64,000 bases of DNA from Bacteroidia bacterium (GTDB taxonomy: Bacteria > Bacteroidota > Bacteroidia > SpSt-205), in contig JANXCX010000005.1 in NCBI GenBank assembly GCA_025059535.1, forward strand, positions 1-64,000, read 5' to 3'. Shown piece by piece: positions 886-8,301 of this stretch. A program made the position numbers and the translations under genes. Positions within the stretch are counted from its first letter, which is position 1. Each line of letters starts with the position of its first letter. The notes beneath the pieces are model-generated. The model worked only from the letters and a program-made list of their open reading frames with translations. It was not told the origin of the DNA and searched no databases.

Positions 886-2718
886 TCAGACGATAGCTTT
901 CTGCCCATGGAATGCCCTATACCGCTCATACCCTTCTTCCCCCATGTATTTACGCATAAGTTCGGGGTCCACTTCCAGAAGGTCTGTGAGCATAAGTATA
1001 TCCAAGGCATCATTGAAGGAGCGGTCTACATTAAAGGCCAAAATGCGCGCGCCCATGCGCAGGTAGTGCCGAATCAGCACGGGTAACCGAATGGGACTGC
1101 CTTCTAATTCCTGTATCAGGTCTTCCACATCGCGGAGGCTCTGCACCGCTACCGTATAGTAATAGCGGCGATGGTCGGAAGAAATCACATAGGGGTTACG
1201 CGGCCGAACTTCCGCTACTAGTGCCTCGGCCTTGTAACGGTCTTCCAAGAAGGCCACCAAAAAGGCCTTAGACAGGTCGGAAAAATGCTTACTAAGGCTC
1301 ACGGGCCCTATAAGGAAGCGGTAACGCGGGTTTTGGAGGATATACTGGCCAATGCCCCGCCATAACAGATAGAGCGGGGCGTAGGCGCGCTGATATTTCT
1401 CCGTGACAAAAGCGCGACCCAATTCTAGGGCCGGATGGATTTCCCGAAAAAGCGTGCGCCGAAGGTGAAAGAGGGAGTAAAGGTAAAGGCCACGCAAACC
1501 ACGGGTCTGAAGAATTTCGTCGCAACGACCGATCCGATAGGCGCCTATGATTTCCTTTTCGCTGGTGTGGTAGAGCACAAGGTGGTCATACCACGTGTCG
1601 TAGGCGTCGGTGTCTAAGGCTTTACCCGTACCCTCTCCTGCGGCACGGAAAGTGGTTTCCCGCAGCCGTCCCAGTTCGTAGAGGAGCTGAGGCTGCTGAC
1701 TGCCGCGAAAGTAATATACGGCCCATTCTCCTTGTTCTATGAGCTTTTGGGAAGGCGGCAGGCTACTTAGCAGTTGGTCCACAACTTCACGCCTCAGCGG
1801 AGGTCTAATAGGTTGAAGGGGATGGGTAGGCAAGAAGCGCTGGCGCCAGCGATAGAGCCGCAGGCGACGCCAGCGGCTTTCTACGGCTTCGCCTAATAGG
1901 TAGGTTTTTGCTCGCAGATAGCTGGTAATGCGATCTGGCGATCCCAGGGCGCGCAAGCGCTCAAACGGATGAAGGCGCCCCATCCGATAATGTACCTTGC
2001 GCGCAGAGGGCGAGACAAATTCGCGGATAAGGAGCCCCGTCCTAAGACGCGCATGGATAAGGCCAGCTAAATGAAAGAGCAGGCTATTTGTGCCGTGAAA
2101 GTAGAGCGGTAGGACAGCGGCTTGGCTTTGCCAGATGAGGCGTCCTACGAGGGGGTGCCATTCGGGTTCGCGCACTCGTCCCGTGCGCCAGTTCCAACTG
2201 GCCACCTCTCCTGAGGGGAAAATCCCCAAAAGATTGCCGGCTTTGAGGTAGGCTAAGGCTTGACGCAGAGGCTGGCGATTGAACTGCTGCGCTCCTTCCC
2301 CCCCAAAAGGATCTACCAGCAAAAGCATTTCCCGCACCTCCTCCACCCGCTCCAAGAAAAAGTTCGCAATAATCCGAAAATCTGGCCGGATTTCGCTGAG
2401 AAAACGCACGAGAAAAATGGCTTCTATGCCGCCAAAGGGATGATTGCATACCACTACCAGAGGACCTTGATAGGCCCGCAGGGCTTCCAGTTCAGCTTCA
2501 GATGGCAAAACGTATTGAACGCCTATAAGCTCTAGCACCCGGTCGGCAAACTCCGCCGGGGATTTGCCCGATGTCTCGCAGAGCTCGTAGAAGCGATTGA
2601 GCTGCTCTATACCCAAAGCCTTTTCCATCCATGGGCCCAATAGACGATAAATGACCTGCTGCCAAGGCGTAGCCAGCAGTTTATCCAGCTCCACTAGCGG
2701 GCGGCGATAGCGGCTCAC
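886..2718 (-). CDS. olsF: OlsF-like bifunctional acyltransferase (PlsC-type plus GNAT)
   Basis: About 610 residues. The N-terminal half is a PlsC/LPLAT-type acyltransferase with NHPFGG near residues 92-97, the H-x5-acid form seen in OlsF/hemolysin-like enzymes, here with Glu as the acid. The C-terminal half (about 330-540) resembles the OlsB ornithine N-acyltransferase GNAT fold. This domain order is that of OlsF, which makes ornithine or other aminolipids at the membrane in Flavobacterium and Serratia. The reading frame can be extended to a TTG at 2784, but a TACCTTTG box at 2723-2730 lies inside that extension, 4 nt before a GTG at 2718, so I place the start there. It diverges from the T9SS cargo gene. 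The substrate (ornithine, glycine, lysine) is not determinable. Confidence 0.75.
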   Translation of the reverse strand: MSRYRRPLVELDKLLATPWQQVIYRLLGPWMEKALGIEQLNRFYELCETSGKSPAEFADRVLELIGVQYVLPSEAELEALRAYQGPLVVVCNHPFGGIEAIFLVRFLSEIRPDFRIIANFFLERVEEVREMLLLVDPFGGEGAQQFNRQPLRQALAYLKAGNLLGIFPSGEVASWNWRTGRVREPEWHPLVGRLIWQSQAAVLPLYFHGTNSLLFHLAGLIHARLRTGLLIREFVSPSARKVHYRMGRLHPFERLRALGSPDRITSYLRAKTYLLGEAVESRWRRLRLYRWRQRFLPTHPLQPIRPPLRREVVDQLLSSLPPSQKLIEQGEWAVYYFRGSQQPQLLYELGRLRETTFRAAGEGTGKALDTDAYDTWYDHLVLYHTSEKEIIGAYRIGRCDEILQTRGLRGLYLYSLFHLRRTLFREIHPALELGRAFVTEKYQRAYAPLYLLWRGIGQYILQNPRYRFLIGPVSLSKHFSDLSKAFLVAFLEDRYKAEALVAEVRPRNPYVISSDHRRYYYTVAVQSLRDVEDLIQELEGSPIRLPVLIRHYLRMGARILAFNVDRSFNDALDILMLTDLLEVDPELMRKYMGEEGYERYRAFHGQKAIV

Positions 2719-2722
2719 TAAC

Positions 2723-2730
2723 CAAAGGTA
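2723..2730 (-). promoter_or_regulatory. -7 box TACCTTTG, 4 nt before the OlsF-like GTG start
   Basis: A perfect TAnnTTTG box on the minus strand with spacer GTTA and then GTG at 2718. It decides the start of the acyltransferase: the upstream in-frame TTG (2784) lies on the other side of this promoter and inside the divergent gene. Confidence 0.65.
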
Positions 2731-2734
2731 GGAA

Positions 2735-2764
2735 TTTGGATTTTTGGAAAAAGCCGTATATTTG
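2735..2764 (+). promoter_or_regulatory. Bacteroidota promoter, -33 TTTG and -7 TATATTTG
   Basis: TTTG at 2735-2738, an 18-nt spacer, then TATATTTG at 2757-2764, ending 7 nt before the ATG at 2772. This is the fullest two-part promoter in the window. It lies within a TTG-started 5' extension of the reading frame (from 2736), which argues against that extension. Confidence 0.7.
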
Positions 2765-2771
2765 GGGTGGT

Positions 2772-3716
2772 ATGCGCTACGCAAGCATTACTTTATTTTT
2801 GATGGCCCTTTTGGGGGCTCAGGCCTATGGCCAAAATCAATGTACGCGCTGTACGCCTGATAGAAGCCAGATTGCTCTGCCGCGCGGGTTCAATCCAGAC
2901 ACCTTGCGGCTTCCCCCAGGCGTGGATACTACCCTCGTAGTACATTTCACCTTCCCAGACTCCGTGAGAAGAGGACAGTTCGTTTTGTATCCCAACTACG
3001 CCATTTGGGTAGATAGCATGCGCCTTGACTCCAACCGCGTTAGGGACCGCAACGGTAACAACTTTGCCTATGACAGCAGTAATCCAGAGGCTGGCCCTAT
3101 CCACTTTGACCAAGACCATCGCACTAAGCCCTACGAGCCTAACAATCCGAATACAGCCCGATTTGTGGTATATCGTAATCCTTCGCCCCAGGAATGGGGT
3201 AGTGGAGGGAGCGCCGGTAATACACCGCCCTATGGCTGCGCGCGCCTGTGTATCAGGACCGTCAATCAAGAAGGCTCTGATACCCTGCGTGTCCGCGTGC
3301 GTTTCTTCATACCTCAGGGAGCCCTCGGAACGGATGGGAACAATAAGGACACTACTAGTGTCTATACTCCTGATGTTCTTGGCAATCGCACCTATGGGGA
3401 TACTGTATTTCGGTACGTAGTAAAAATAACCCGCAATCTTCAGACCCATGCGGGCTATGTAGGAAGCTATTCCGTACAGCTGCGCCTATCCCCTAATCCG
3501 GCCTGGGGTGAAACGGAGCTCAGATTTATCCTTATGTCTCCTACGCGTGTGAGCCTGCGTGCCTTCACCATAGACGGCCGAGAGGTCTATCTCCATGAGA
3601 GCCTATACGCCGCAGGCGAACACCGCCACTCGCTTCGCCTACCTAAGGGGATTTATACTATCCTCTTAGAGACGGAATATGGCCGTGTAGCTGAACGGCT
3701 AGTGATGCTAGAGTAG
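2772..3716 (+). CDS. Secreted protein with T9SS type A C-terminal sorting domain
   Basis: About 314 residues with an N-terminal signal peptide (MRYASITLFLMALLGAQAYG, cleavage likely after AYG). The middle is Asp/Asn/Pro-rich with no family I recognise; it carries a short Cys-x2-Cys pair near the mature N-terminus. The last roughly 75 residues form a type A T9SS sorting domain: LSPNPAWGETELRF, then a DGREV-type strand and a GIYTILLE strand. By family knowledge it crosses the outer membrane by T9SS and is anchored or released after domain removal. The ATG at 2772 is chosen because the promoter occupies the longer open frame upstream. A strong terminator follows directly. Confidence 0.8.
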   Translation: MRYASITLFLMALLGAQAYGQNQCTRCTPDRSQIALPRGFNPDTLRLPPGVDTTLVVHFTFPDSVRRGQFVLYPNYAIWVDSMRLDSNRVRDRNGNNFAYDSSNPEAGPIHFDQDHRTKPYEPNNPNTARFVVYRNPSPQEWGSGGSAGNTPPYGCARLCIRTVNQEGSDTLRVRVRFFIPQGALGTDGNNKDTTSVYTPDVLGNRTYGDTVFRYVVKITRNLQTHAGYVGSYSVQLRLSPNPAWGETELRFILMSPTRVSLRAFTIDGREVYLHESLYAAGEHRHSLRLPKGIYTILLETEYGRVAERLVMLE

Positions 3717-3739: not shown

Positions 3740-3774
3740 GAGGCGATGCGCCGCGCGCATCGCCTCTTTTTTTT
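3740..3774 (+). terminator. Intrinsic terminator fused to the tRNA promoter
   Basis: An 11-bp perfect stem (GAGGCGATGCG with CGCATCGCCTC, 3740-3750 and 3756-3766) has a 5-nt loop and is followed by eight T (3767-3774). The last T is also the first base of the TACCTTTG box serving tRNA-Tyr. Confidence 0.92.
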
Positions 3775-3781
3775 ACCTTTG
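3774..3781 (+). promoter_or_regulatory. -7 box TACCTTTG for tRNA-Tyr/tRNA-Gly/ubiA
   Basis: A perfect TAnnTTTG box directly after the terminator T-tract. The mature tRNA-Tyr 5' end (3790) is 8 nt downstream, leaving a leader of a few bases for RNase P. It probably drives tRNA-Tyr, tRNA-Gly and ubiA together, since no other promoter is visible before ubiA. Confidence 0.75.
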
Positions 3782-3789
3782 TTCCACTC

Positions 3790-3873
3790 GGGGAGTTGCC
3801 GGAGCGGTCAAACGGGCCTGACTGTAAATCAGGTGGCGCCATGCCTACGGAGGTTCGAATCCTCCACTCCCCA
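3790..3873 (+). tRNA. tRNA-Tyr (anticodon GTA)
   Basis: 84 nt with a 7-bp acceptor stem (GGGGAGT/ACTCCCC), anticodon GTA in the loop CTGTAAA, a long class II variable arm as expected for bacterial tRNA-Tyr, and a GGTTCGAATCC T-arm. Discriminator A, no encoded CCA. One nucleotide separates it from tRNA-Gly. Confidence 0.97.
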
Positions 3874-3874
3874 C

Positions 3875-3947
3875 GCGGGAGTAGCTCAGCCGGTAGAGCA
3901 TCAGCCTTCCAAGCTGAGGGCCGCGGGTTCGAATCCCGTCTCCCGCT
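3875..3947 (+). tRNA. tRNA-Gly (anticodon TCC)
   Basis: 73 nt with acceptor stem GCGGGAG/CTCCCGC, D-arm TAGCTCAGCCGGTAGAGCA, anticodon TCC and T-arm GGGTTCGAATCCC. CCA is not encoded; the next bases are C then ATC. That ATC at 3949 is in frame with ubiA, so RNase Z cleavage after T3947 would free a ubiA mRNA with only one base before the candidate start. Confidence 0.97.
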
Positions 3948-3948
3948 C

Positions 3949-4833
3949 ATCTTCCCTTTCCTTCAGCGTTTCGGGAAACGACTAAAGCTATATAGCCGAC
4001 TAGTAGTTTTAGAGCATGCCGTATTCGCCCTTCCCTTTGCGTTGTGGGGGTTTGCGGTAGGCGTCAAGGAGATAGGCGGTACAGCTATTCTGCCTAAGCT
4101 AGGTTGGGTTTTGATAGCCCTTATAAGCGCACGTACGGCGGCCTTAGCGTTCAATAGATATGCGGATCATTCCTTAGACGCACAGAATCCGCGTACGGCG
4201 CAACGGGAGATTCCACGCGGCCTAGTTCGGCCCAGAGAAGCCCTATCCCTTACCCTGGCATCTGCGGCAATTTTTATGATTAGCGCCTGGCGGCTTAATC
4301 CCCTCTGTGGCGCTCTGGCCCCCTTAGCGCTTTTTATCCTCTTAGGCTATTCCTATACCAAGCGTTTCACGCACCTCTCCCACTATATTCTGGGCCTAGC
4401 TTTAGGGCTAGCTCCCGTAGGAGCTTATTTGGCCGTAACTGGCCGCTTTTCCGTATTTATCCTGAACATAGGAATGGCTGTGGTCTTTTGGGTAGCGGGC
4501 TTTGATATTCTGTATGCGCTCCAAGATGTGGAGTTTGATCGAGCAGTAGGTCTGCACAGCATTCCAGCGCGCTTCGGTGAGGCTCTCGCTCGCCGTATAA
4601 GCCTTATTAGTCACGGGATCAGCATAATCCTCTTAGCTTGGGGGGGATTCTCTCTCTACGGCAGCCATCCCTTATACTGGATAGGATGGGGGCTCTTCAG
4701 CGGATTTGTATTTTACCAGCACAAGGTAAGTTGCGACAAAAGTCGCATCACTCGAGCCTTTTTCACGCATAATGGACTGGCCTCAATAGGATTAGGGACT
4801 CTAGCAATTGTGGCTTTGTGGGTGCCTGCCTAA
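3949..4833 (+). CDS. mqnP: UbiA-family polyprenyltransferase, probable MqnP
   Basis: About 294 residues and membrane-embedded. It carries the first UbiA prenyl-diphosphate motif (NRYADHSLD, followed by NPRT) and the second (DVEFDRAVG), with several hydrophobic helices. In Bacteroidota this family member usually serves menaquinone synthesis by the futalosine route, prenylating an aromatic acid; I infer that role. The frame has no ATG, GTG or TTG between tRNA-Gly and the conserved region LYSRLVVLEHAVFALPF. The nearest in-frame ATG upstream (3841) lies inside tRNA-Tyr. I therefore propose ATC at 3949, which gives a normal-length protein starting close to where homologues start. Function is well supported; the start is unusual and unproven. 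Confidence 0.72.
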   Translation: MFPFLQRFGKRLKLYSRLVVLEHAVFALPFALWGFAVGVKEIGGTAILPKLGWVLIALISARTAALAFNRYADHSLDAQNPRTAQREIPRGLVRPREALSLTLASAAIFMISAWRLNPLCGALAPLALFILLGYSYTKRFTHLSHYILGLALGLAPVGAYLAVTGRFSVFILNIGMAVVFWVAGFDILYALQDVEFDRAVGLHSIPARFGEALARRISLISHGISIILLAWGGFSLYGSHPLYWIGWGLFSGFVFYQHKVSCDKSRITRAFFTHNGLASIGLGTLAIVALWVPA

Positions 4834-4848: not shown

Positions 4849-7800
4849 CTACTCCACTACTAATAGGTGGGTGCGCCAAAGTGGAGCCGACTCCTCTGTG
4901 ATGGTAAGGAGATATAACCCAGCAGGCAGCGATAGGGCTATGTCGCCTTCTCTACCCTCAAAGGGGTAAGTAGCCACTACCTTCCCAGTGAGATCATAAA
5001 AGGCCAAAGAATACGTACCCGTACGGGGCGCTATTAGGTGTAGGGTGGCATGGGCTGGATTAGGGAAAATGGCAAACTCACCGCCCGCAGAGAGAAGCGC
5101 ACTAGGACGCAGGACTACCTCCACGTAAAGCGTATCCCGCTCCTCGCAAGCGCCATTCCTTGAGCGCAATATCAGCGTGTGCCTGCCCTCCTGCGTGAAA
5201 GTGTGGGTAAAGGTGGCTTGATTGCCTGTAGCGGAAGGGGTAGTAGCCCCAGGGTTGTAAACTTCCCAGTCGTAGGCATTTCCTACCGTGGTGCTGGCGG
5301 CCTCAAAGGTAGCTTGTACGGTTGGCGGCGTGCCAGTAAGAGTATAAGTGTCGCCGCTAGTATAGGTCCTATCCCCCACGGCGATAGAGGCGTCTGGCTG
5401 AGGGGAAACGGTAACGCTTAGGGTATCCGCCGTGGTATCGTTACGACAGACAGGGGGTTGGGGATTCTCCCGAATAGCTTGGACTATCACGGTGTAGTTA
5501 CCTACGGCTAAGTTTAGCGTATAGATAGGACCGGTGGCACCGCTAACAGGCTGATTATTTACCAGCCAACGGTAAGTAGTAGCACCCTCCGCGCTACCAT
5601 CTAAGGGGAGCGTCCCTGCACTGACGCATACCAGCCGATCGGCACCTAAATCGGGCCGCCTTGTAAAGGGCGGTGTAGGATAGCCTGTCAGGCTGAGGCG
5701 GAATCGTCCCTGCGAAGCGGCATTGAAACCCTCCACTATAATCAGCAGTTCATCACCCTCTCGCAAGGGGATGGTATCACGCGTGGGGGCTTGTGGGTTC
5801 TCGGGCATCGGCTTTATGCGCTGAGAGCCAAGCCGGCCAATAGCTAAGATGTGAGCCGTGAAGTGAGGGTCACTAAACCCTGCTGCACTACAGGTACTAC
5901 CTTGATCTTCGTCAGACGTAGTGTCAGGTAGCGTGAGATTAATAAGGCTAAGGCGCGTGCCGAAGGTAGTGCCCTCATCGCAGGTATTTAGGCGTAGGGA
6001 GTCTAAACAGACAGGTAGGGTGAGGCGAAAGAAGAGGTCACGCGCGCCCGTGCCGCGCGGGTTAGTAGCCACACCCGTTGCGCCCGACTCCCCGTATTCA
6101 TTGGAGATAGCCGGCCCGCTTGTGCTATCCTGCACGCTGGCTTCCCAATAGCCCGTAGCGGAATTGTAACTGAGCGCAAGGGGGATAGCGGTAGAAGGCC
6201 GATTGCCCGGTCTATCGGTAAGGTTGAGGCTAAGGGCCACATTAGAGGTATCTGGCGGCTCATTAGGACAGCCACTCGGCATACGCGCTACCAGCGCTAT
6301 CCGTATAGTTCCGGTATAGATAGGTGGCGTAAGAGGCGGAAGGACAAAAGTAGTGGGAAAGCCGCTTACCACTCCTCCACCCTGCCACGTAGTTCCGTTA
6401 TCCAGCGAGTAGAGTATCTCTACTTCCCCCTGCAGGGGTGGCTGATTAGTACCGGAGGTGTCTAAGGTTATTACGGTCCCCCACAGATAGGCTGTGCCCA
6501 CCTGTGGCGGCGTAGGGGTGATGACGCTAGGGGCAAAGGGCGCTGGAGGGCAAGGGGGACGTGTACCTGCCAGTTCATCTGCTCCTATATCCGGCGCCGT
6601 ACCCGGGTCACTACCTACCCCGCCTATAGGACGAGCCTGCCCATCAAAGTCAAGGGTACCATTATACGCCGCATCACCCGCGTTGATGACCGGCGTCGGC
6701 GTCGTGCTCACTAAATGAAGGTCCGTAGGAGACACAAAAGGCACATCGTCGGGCAGGAAAAACCCATTGGCTTCCCGCCCTGACGCCGAAGCACGCCATG
6801 CCGAGAGCGTAGCATAGTTGGTATTACCAACCCGGGCTACATAGTTAGGAATACCTTGCGCCGCTATGCGATAGGCATTGTGGTTTATTTGAGCCCCACT
6901 GAGAGAGGTACTAAAGAAAAGTAGGCCATACGCCGTACGCGTGCCATTTTGGGCCACACGTAGGGAGTTTTGAAGGATATTACCCGAAATCACTAAACCA
7001 CCTGCGATTCGGTGCCCTATAGTTATCGCCGCAGAGCTGCCTTCGGATTGGGCAGAGATAACAGAATTATTACCGTATAGATGAATAGAATTGTGATAAA
7101 TAGCCAGCTTTGCATCTGTTAGATCGTTAGCCGCATTTACAAAGATACCGCTCACATACTCGGCGCCCGTTGTAGAGGTGCGCGCATCGCCCACAATATC
7201 GGCAATCATATTGCTGAAAATCCTATTCTGAGAAGAGGCCTGCAGCGTGGCAGGAAGGATTACGCAGATGCCATACTGACCTCGTCCATCCGTACCCGTA
7301 TAGCGCAGACCGTATATCCAGTTGCGCGCTATAGTAAAGTTCTCGCAGGTATCCAGCCGCACCCCCGCCAATTGATTAGCGGCGGTTATACTGCCACTTG
7401 TCGCTCCCGTGATTTGATTGCCTATTATTTGAATGCCCCTGCCCCAAAATAGGTGGATGCCTCCTATGTTGAAGGTTGCAGCCCAGGAGTCGGTGGCCGC
7501 CCGGCCTATTTGATTTCCTTCTACTTCTATGCTATTGAGTAGGGCGCTGGACGAACCCCGCAGCATAATCGGCCGGCTAACGCTATCTATCCTATTGGAG
7601 CTAATGCGCAGCCCTCGAACGGTACTCCCAGGGGTCAGCGGGGCCGATACGAGATTACCTGTCGCTGGATCCGAACCAAGGTATATACCGCTGAAGGTTT
7701 GCGCGCGATTGAAGCCCAGCAGTATAAACCCATCTATAGTGAATTCTTCTAAGTTAAGAGGCGCATCTTGTGTAGAAACAATCCCGATAAGGCCTGTAGT

Positions 7801-8286
7801 GGTGCCAGAATTAGAAGCGTTTTGGGTGCTTTTTAGGGCAAAAACGCCAGTACCGCTCAGAGAGAAATTGCGCAGCTGACCGTGATTGAGCGGATTAGAT
7901 AAATTACTCTGGGTAGTGCCTCCAAAGCGGAATATGAAACGGCCACCAGATGTTGTAGCTGGGGCCTTACGAAGGGTATCTTGGCGCTGAAGCATTACCG
8001 ACACCCGGCAGTTTATGCAGTTATACCCCACTAGCGTGATAGTGGAAGGTTCGTTCGCCGGATTCCAGGCGCTGGCTGGCGTAAGCCTAATTACTACGTC
8101 ACCTTGCGCCCCCCGCTGATTGAGCGAGTCAAATGCCTCTTGAATAGTAGCAAACCGTCTATTGGCGAAATCACTTACCCCCGTAATTTGATAAACTCCT
8201 TGTAGCGGAGTACTCTGGGCCCAAGCCACCCCCAGGGCTAAAAGTAAGCCCAATAAGCCATCTCCATAGCCACTTTTTCCCTGCAT
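4849..8286 (-). CDS. Large secreted beta-helix protein with T9SS sorting domain
   Basis: 1145 residues. A signal peptide (MQGKSGYGDGLLGLLLALGVAWAQ) leads into a long region with right-handed parallel beta-helix character (roughly residues 100-480, with repeated IxxNxI and GIxL patterns). Then come Pro/Thr-rich segments, an Ig/PKD-like region (about 900-1050) and a type A sorting domain (FAIFPNPAHATLHL to GLYLLTITEES). Expected fate is T9SS export to the cell surface, where beta-helix proteins commonly bind or cleave polysaccharide; no catalytic residues were identified. It lies just downstream of pyrF on the same strand but has its own promoter-like box (TATCTTCG, 8294-8301). Confidence 0.8.
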   Translation of the reverse strand: MQGKSGYGDGLLGLLLALGVAWAQSTPLQGVYQITGVSDFANRRFATIQEAFDSLNQRGAQGDVVIRLTPASAWNPANEPSTITLVGYNCINCRVSVMLQRQDTLRKAPATTSGGRFIFRFGGTTQSNLSNPLNHGQLRNFSLSGTGVFALKSTQNASNSGTTTGLIGIVSTQDAPLNLEEFTIDGFILLGFNRAQTFSGIYLGSDPATGNLVSAPLTPGSTVRGLRISSNRIDSVSRPIMLRGSSSALLNSIEVEGNQIGRAATDSWAATFNIGGIHLFWGRGIQIIGNQITGATSGSITAANQLAGVRLDTCENFTIARNWIYGLRYTGTDGRGQYGICVILPATLQASSQNRIFSNMIADIVGDARTSTTGAEYVSGIFVNAANDLTDAKLAIYHNSIHLYGNNSVISAQSEGSSAAITIGHRIAGGLVISGNILQNSLRVAQNGTRTAYGLLFFSTSLSGAQINHNAYRIAAQGIPNYVARVGNTNYATLSAWRASASGREANGFFLPDDVPFVSPTDLHLVSTTPTPVINAGDAAYNGTLDFDGQARPIGGVGSDPGTAPDIGADELAGTRPPCPPAPFAPSVITPTPPQVGTAYLWGTVITLDTSGTNQPPLQGEVEILYSLDNGTTWQGGGVVSGFPTTFVLPPLTPPIYTGTIRIALVARMPSGCPNEPPDTSNVALSLNLTDRPGNRPSTAIPLALSYNSATGYWEASVQDSTSGPAISNEYGESGATGVATNPRGTGARDLFFRLTLPVCLDSLRLNTCDEGTTFGTRLSLINLTLPDTTSDEDQGSTCSAAGFSDPHFTAHILAIGRLGSQRIKPMPENPQAPTRDTIPLREGDELLIIVEGFNAASQGRFRLSLTGYPTPPFTRRPDLGADRLVCVSAGTLPLDGSAEGATTYRWLVNNQPVSGATGPIYTLNLAVGNYTVIVQAIRENPQPPVCRNDTTADTLSVTVSPQPDASIAVGDRTYTSGDTYTLTGTPPTVQATFEAASTTVGNAYDWEVYNPGATTPSATGNQATFTHTFTQEGRHTLILRSRNGACEERDTLYVEVVLRPSALLSAGGEFAIFPNPAHATLHLIAPRTGTYSLAFYDLTGKVVATYPFEGREGDIALSLPAGLYLLTITEESAPLWRTHLLVVE

Positions 8287-8293
8287 ACTGCTG

Positions 8294-8301
8294 CGAAGAT
8301 A
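8294..8301 (-). promoter_or_regulatory. -7-like box TATCTTCG before the beta-helix gene
   Basis: One mismatch to TAnnTTTG on the minus strand, ending 7 nt before the ATG at 8286. The same TTCG variant occurs before lolA. Confidence 0.4.

Follow-up and report, generated by a model that had tools for sequence, protein, structure and literature searches.

A candidate AUC start codon for ubiA at the 3´ end of tRNA-Gly and probable tRNA-punctuated leaderless mRNAs in a genus of Bacteroidia

The punctuation of mitochondrial transcripts by tRNAs was reportedly described by Ojala, Montoya and Attardi in 1981. The prevailing view is that such punctuation is a mitochondrial speciality and that leaderless mRNAs are products of transcription start. 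tRNA-mRNA co-transcripts are known for Escherichia coli tufB and leuU-secG, with mRNAs that keep a leader carrying a Shine-Dalgarno site, and infC is read from an AUU start codon. In mitochondria, tRNAs abut the protein genes, and tRNA excision leaves mRNAs whose 5´ end lies at the start codon or close to it, with AUA and AUU serving as starts beside AUG (PMC5203842). Leaderless mRNAs of Propionibacterium acnes begin with ATG, GTG or TTG (PMC3848588), while mycobacterial leaderless translation accepts only ATG or GTG at +1, with ATC used as the negative control (PMC4633059). A GTC start, controlled by IF3, has been reported for Streptomyces sigR (PMC5472188), and cleavage between the two C residues of CCA has been reported for P. 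acnes and S. coelicolor (PMC3848588, PMC4681348). A survey based on promoter boxes found few leaderless genes in Bacteroidetes (1 of 37 genomes; PMC3160421), and a later study suggests that there are more (PMC5397173). Our search of the non-subscription literature for bacterial tRNA punctuation, or for start codons inside tRNA genes, returned only mitochondrial or unrelated papers.

We analyzed a junction between a tRNA and a protein gene in a stretch of 64,000 nucleotides from a Bacteroidia contig (the window), where the forward strand carries tRNA-Tyr (GUA; 3790-3873; ARAGORN; Rfam RF00005, 61.2 bits), tRNA-Gly (UCC; 3875-3947; ARAGORN; Rfam RF00005, 75.4 bits) and ubiA (3949-4833). An exact match to TAnnTTTG, the Bacteroidota -7 box (TACCTTTG, 3774-3781, same strand), lies 8 bp 5´ of tRNA-Tyr and is the putative promoter of the tRNA-Tyr/tRNA-Gly/ubiA unit. 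A motif scan detected no further TAnnTTTG from 3782 to ubiA, and no terminator-like site was seen by eye in 3948-3990. As an earlier note on this DNA had claimed, tRNA-Gly ends at the discriminator T3947, both by sequence and by ARAGORN, whose call also takes in C3948, and an in-frame ATC one base further, at 3949-3951, reads into the UbiA ORF. Depending on the cut, C3948 would be C74 of tRNA-Gly or the first base of the mRNA. The note was likewise right that no ATG, GTG or TTG lies between tRNA-Gly and the conserved region and that the nearest upstream ATG is within tRNA-Tyr: the frame is open from 3712 to the stop at 4831-4833, its in-frame upstream candidates are TTG 3796 and ATG 3841 (3841-3843), both within tRNA-Tyr, and the first canonical start 3´ of tRNA-Gly is TTG 4042 (4042-4044), which falls inside the conserved FALPFALWG of helix 1. 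A start-free stretch of about 31 codons is by itself not rare by chance. ATC 3949, the sole one-base neighbor of ATG in frame from the tRNA to AAG 3985, is the candidate start, placed at the 5´ end that processing would give the mRNA. As in tRNA punctuation, the gene stands directly at the tRNA 3´ end behind a gap apparently free of promoter and terminator; in place of the AUG or GUG start of leaderless mRNAs, ubiA has the candidate ATC. A special RNA structure at the ubiA start was also considered and rejected, as the fold z-score was unremarkable (-1.1).

The encoded protein is a UbiA-like, MqnP-like polyprenyltransferase, matching Pfam PF01040 with 175.5 bits and TIGR01475 with 278.3 bits (cut-off 180.8; positions 1-274 of 282), whereas the MqnP models score 222-261 bits, below their cut-offs. 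The coding sequence is intact, retains the UbiA motifs with 61-68% identity to relatives, and is the single match found in its 1.9 Mb genome. Counted from ATC, family homology in the profile sets in at about residue 11, and the proteins of relatives mostly begin 4-9 residues ahead of a conserved Tyr, corresponding to about 3967-3979 in the window; initiation at ATC would give UbiA about 10 N-terminal residues without homology. The flanking genes (2673-3716, forward strand; 4849-8301, reverse strand) look like genes for secreted proteins, the product of the latter giving a weak type IX sorting-tail match (26.5 bits, cut-off 27).

For the window genome (G000), we listed all tRNA genes and read the DNA downstream of each; most have a same-strand protein gene directly 3´. 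Five genomes of the genus gave 121 tRNA units, of which 91 have a long ORF on the same strand behind them; its first in-frame start lies 1, 2 or 3 nt past the discriminator in 16, 9 and 9 cases, respectively. These 34 of 91 ORFs compare with about 4 expected by chance (binomial 5e-22, a value that overstates independence given that the species are related). The start is within 5 nt in 39 of the 91 and within 12 nt in 50, and all of these counts are lower bounds, since the ORF picker overlooks the Leu(UAA) junction and short genes such as secE. Two other Bacteroidia served as controls: none of their 22 ORFs had such a tRNA-abutting start, and ordinary terminators stand behind most of their tRNAs. 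The design reaches beyond the genus, given that a start within 15 nt was found behind 11 of 20 tRNA units in G011, from another genus of the family, and 6 of 22 units in G012, from the same order.

Individual junctions are conserved at the level of single bases. That of tRNA-Val(CAC)-C-TTG with dxr is identical in 4 of 4 species, and tRNA-Thr(CGU)-C-GTG, tRNA-Met-C-NTG (N = A, G or T), tRNA-Arg(UCG)-CT-ATG (rplY, L25), tRNA-Trp-ATG (secE) and tRNA-Asp-ligA each recur in 5 of 5, as does tRNA-Phe-CNN-RTG in the 4 of 4 genomes sampled for that tRNA. NCBIfam models confirm dxr, ligA, prs, secE, bL25 and an OsmC-like protein, and the starts of dxr, prs and bL25 are real, because the models match from about residue 1. 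Exactly where ubiA has ATC, one base past the discriminator, other tRNA-linked genes have ATG, GTG or TTG. By this comparison, the ubiA junction is one case of a genus-wide design, and the predicted link between tRNA ends and leaderless messages is far wider than the single ubiA case of the earlier note; we regard a tRNA-punctuated leaderless architecture as very likely. In the window genome, 42 of 43 tRNAs have one encoded C directly behind the discriminator, as do nearly all tRNAs of the control genomes, and full CCA is rare. The idea that this C marks mRNA 5´ ends was rejected, since the controls share it and it is therefore a tRNA feature; it may mark the site of 3´ processing.

A leaderless signature was also found at promoters. 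In about 0.95 Mb of genus DNA, scanned on both strands, 103 of 429 TAnnTTTG cases have an ATG 3-7 nt behind the box, four-fold over the roughly 26 expected, with a peak at 4 nt (42 versus 5.1 expected) that is a sequence signature, not RNA data. Enrichment was weak in the class controls (26 versus about 18 expected). GTG was also enriched in the genus (16 versus 5.7 expected); no enrichment was seen there for TTG, CTG, ATT, ATC or ACG, with ATC found once against 5.6 expected. The ATG enrichment predicts that leaderless translation is common. TAnnTTTG was present within 40 bp upstream of 111 of 125 genus tRNA units (~90%), mostly at 4-10 bp, and the tRNA transcripts seem to be almost without a 5´ leader. 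Many mRNAs here probably begin at the start codon, with a 5´ end set by transcription or, behind tRNAs, by processing. The window genome has an RNase Z gene (G000:C25:218053-218934; 270.9 bits, curated cut-off 292.95). In G007, another genome of the genus, the RNase Z match is split in two pieces (G007:C6:124386-125280), likely owing to a frameshift in that assembly. Collectively, processing to mature tRNAs probably yields leaderless mRNAs in these bacteria, in parallel to the tRNA punctuation of mitochondria.

We compared the ubiA junction in ten genomes of the same genus and in G011. In most relatives, ubiA lies elsewhere in the genome and starts with ATG or GTG, and the tRNA-Tyr/tRNA-Gly/ubiA linkage is also present in G006, G007 and G011. 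A comparison of this junction among relatives, as the earlier note had proposed, cuts both ways. In G006, a second species, canonical starts are likewise missing from the stretch that joins tRNA-Gly to the conserved part of UbiA; the candidates are a CTG directly at the end of the tRNA and an ATA 12 bases further. A short frame, ATG CTG GGA TAG, lies right behind tRNA-Gly in this genome (L009, around 1493-1510), and its stop overlaps the in-frame ATA, where termination-reinitiation could occur. G007 and G011, on the other hand, have an ATG behind a spacer, 41 nt past tRNA-Gly in G007 and about 50 nt in G011. A terminator-like hairpin (AGCTCCACC...GGTGGAGCT-TTTT) stands between tRNA-Gly and the ubiA ATG of G007 (L005 1457-1500), and this layout of hairpin and T-run may be the older arrangement. 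A UbiA tree was set aside as a means of dating the loss of the start, being poorly resolved, with G006 basal and G000 unresolved. A scan of genome contigs for closer strains gave only one 52% relative, and with one assembly only, a sequence error at the ATC is possible.

The frame behind tRNA-Leu(CAA) provides another case of a missing start. The ORF is presumably TamB-like, judging by its anchor; Pfam gave no signal beyond a weak match to DUF748 (23.2 bits, cut-off 50). It leaves the tRNA in one fixed frame in 10 of 12 genomes (L253, L248, L252, L249, L251, L247, L254, L259, L258, L260), and no canonical start lies between the tRNA and the membrane helix in these ten. Seven of them have an Arg codon (CGA or CGG) directly past the tRNA and the others CAG, CTG or CTA; within the tRNA itself, the frame contains an ATG (tRNA nt 7) and a GTG (variable/T arm). 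Since a kept Arg with a varying third base better suits an internal codon, the tamB-like start codon probably lies inside tRNA-Leu(CAA). This frame has been lost in G007 and G011, which have ATG or TTG 3´ of the tRNA.

For ubiA, we propose a single transcription unit running from the promoter through tRNA-Tyr and tRNA-Gly into the gene. Maturation of the tRNA-Gly 3´ end by RNase Z cleavage after the discriminator would release an mRNA beginning C-AUC, or a cut after C74 one beginning AUC, on which ribosomes would initiate at AUC 3949 by the leaderless route that is apparently widespread in the genus. The earlier note tied tRNA maturation to a leaderless message, and this link is well supported by sequence and comparison: by the junction, the promoter box upstream only, the lack of an evident terminator, the RNase Z gene, the leaderless promoter signature and the genus-wide joining of starts to tRNA ends. 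From these we infer that processing occurs, that the processed RNA is the translated RNA and that AUC is its start. The non-canonical start that the note proposed is less settled: ATC is unenriched at leaderless promoters, mycobacteria accept only ATG and GTG, G007 and G011 have an ATG and a spacer, and the possibility of starts inside tRNAs, as for tamB, keeps ATG 3841 a live rival, so we give AUC an even chance of being the ubiA start codon. The explanation as a whole, from tRNA 3´ processing to leaderless initiation at AUC 3949, is in our estimation equally balanced between right and wrong.

Translation could instead begin at ATG 3841 within tRNA-Tyr on the unprocessed transcript, reading through tRNA-Gly and adding 36 residues, so that each transcript would serve either as tRNA or as mRNA. 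The frame is open through to ubiA, and the rival gains weight from the genus precedent of tamB, which seems to start inside a tRNA in 10 of 12 genomes, but ribosomes would have to unfold two tRNAs, and the route is closed in G006, where the same tRNA pair is present and a stop codon within tRNA-Gly interrupts the frame of ubiA; we consider it unlikely. Somewhat less probable again is that the same mRNA, once processed, is read from a different weak codon closer to where the family usually begins (AAG 3985, CTA 3982 or CTA 3988), with codon choice relaxed at the 5´ end. The usual start position in relatives and the onset of the family profile fit such a start, as does the ATA of G006, which suits the length of the relatives, but no recognized bacterial start codon is present there; CTA differs from ATG at two positions, and AAG ranks among the poorest near-cognates.

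The start might also have been lost or misread, if a recent deletion set ubiA against tRNA-Gly, with poor or no expression, or if the assembly is in error. G000 does resemble a version of the G007 and G011 linkage that lacks the spacer and the ATG, though the intact motifs, the conservation relative to other species, the lack of a second copy in the genome and the same kind of junction in G006 all speak against a loss, which we rate as improbable and a shade below the weak-codon start. Least credible, with only a very slight chance, is a shortened UbiA initiated at TTG 4042: this is the first canonical start behind tRNA-Gly, but with it the protein would lack the conserved EHAVFALPFA and the greater part of helix 1, which all relatives have.

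Returning to initiation at AUC within the wider architecture, we place a little short of even the joint reading that this free-living lineage generally relies on tRNA processing to give housekeeping genes (dxr, secE, ligA, prs, rplY) leaderless mRNAs, can initiate at non-AUG codons such as AUC at these ends and, in one conserved case, has kept the tamB start inside tRNA-Leu(CAA). If true, setting the starts of many housekeeping mRNAs by tRNA 3´ processing would couple protein synthesis to the supply of tRNAs, and the junctions would show, as experiments of nature, what start codons bacterial ribosomes tolerate when no leader precedes them. Such starts would also be misplaced or overlooked by gene callers, with ubiA and tamB as cases in point. 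The genus is a little-known one of Bacteroidia, and ubiA is an extreme case, with a first codon that is apparently AUC rather than AUG.

Among the known systems, E. coli tufB and leuU-secG likewise place a tRNA and a protein gene in one transcript parted by processing, but in this genus the start codon touches the tRNA. sigR and infC are, as ubiA would be, housekeeping or regulatory genes read from a weak codon, though they are not leaderless through tRNA processing. In Actinobacteria, transcription from many promoters likewise begins at the start codon itself, and GUG is used, but the 5´ ends there come from transcription initiation, whereas here part would come from tRNA 3´ processing. Mitochondrial tRNA punctuation has the same layout, with protein genes abutting tRNAs and the start codon at or near the expected mRNA 5´ end; it differs in that the arrangement described here is on a bacterial chromosome with separate promoters, concerns a minority of genes, would be read by a bacterial ribosome and depends on predicted processing.
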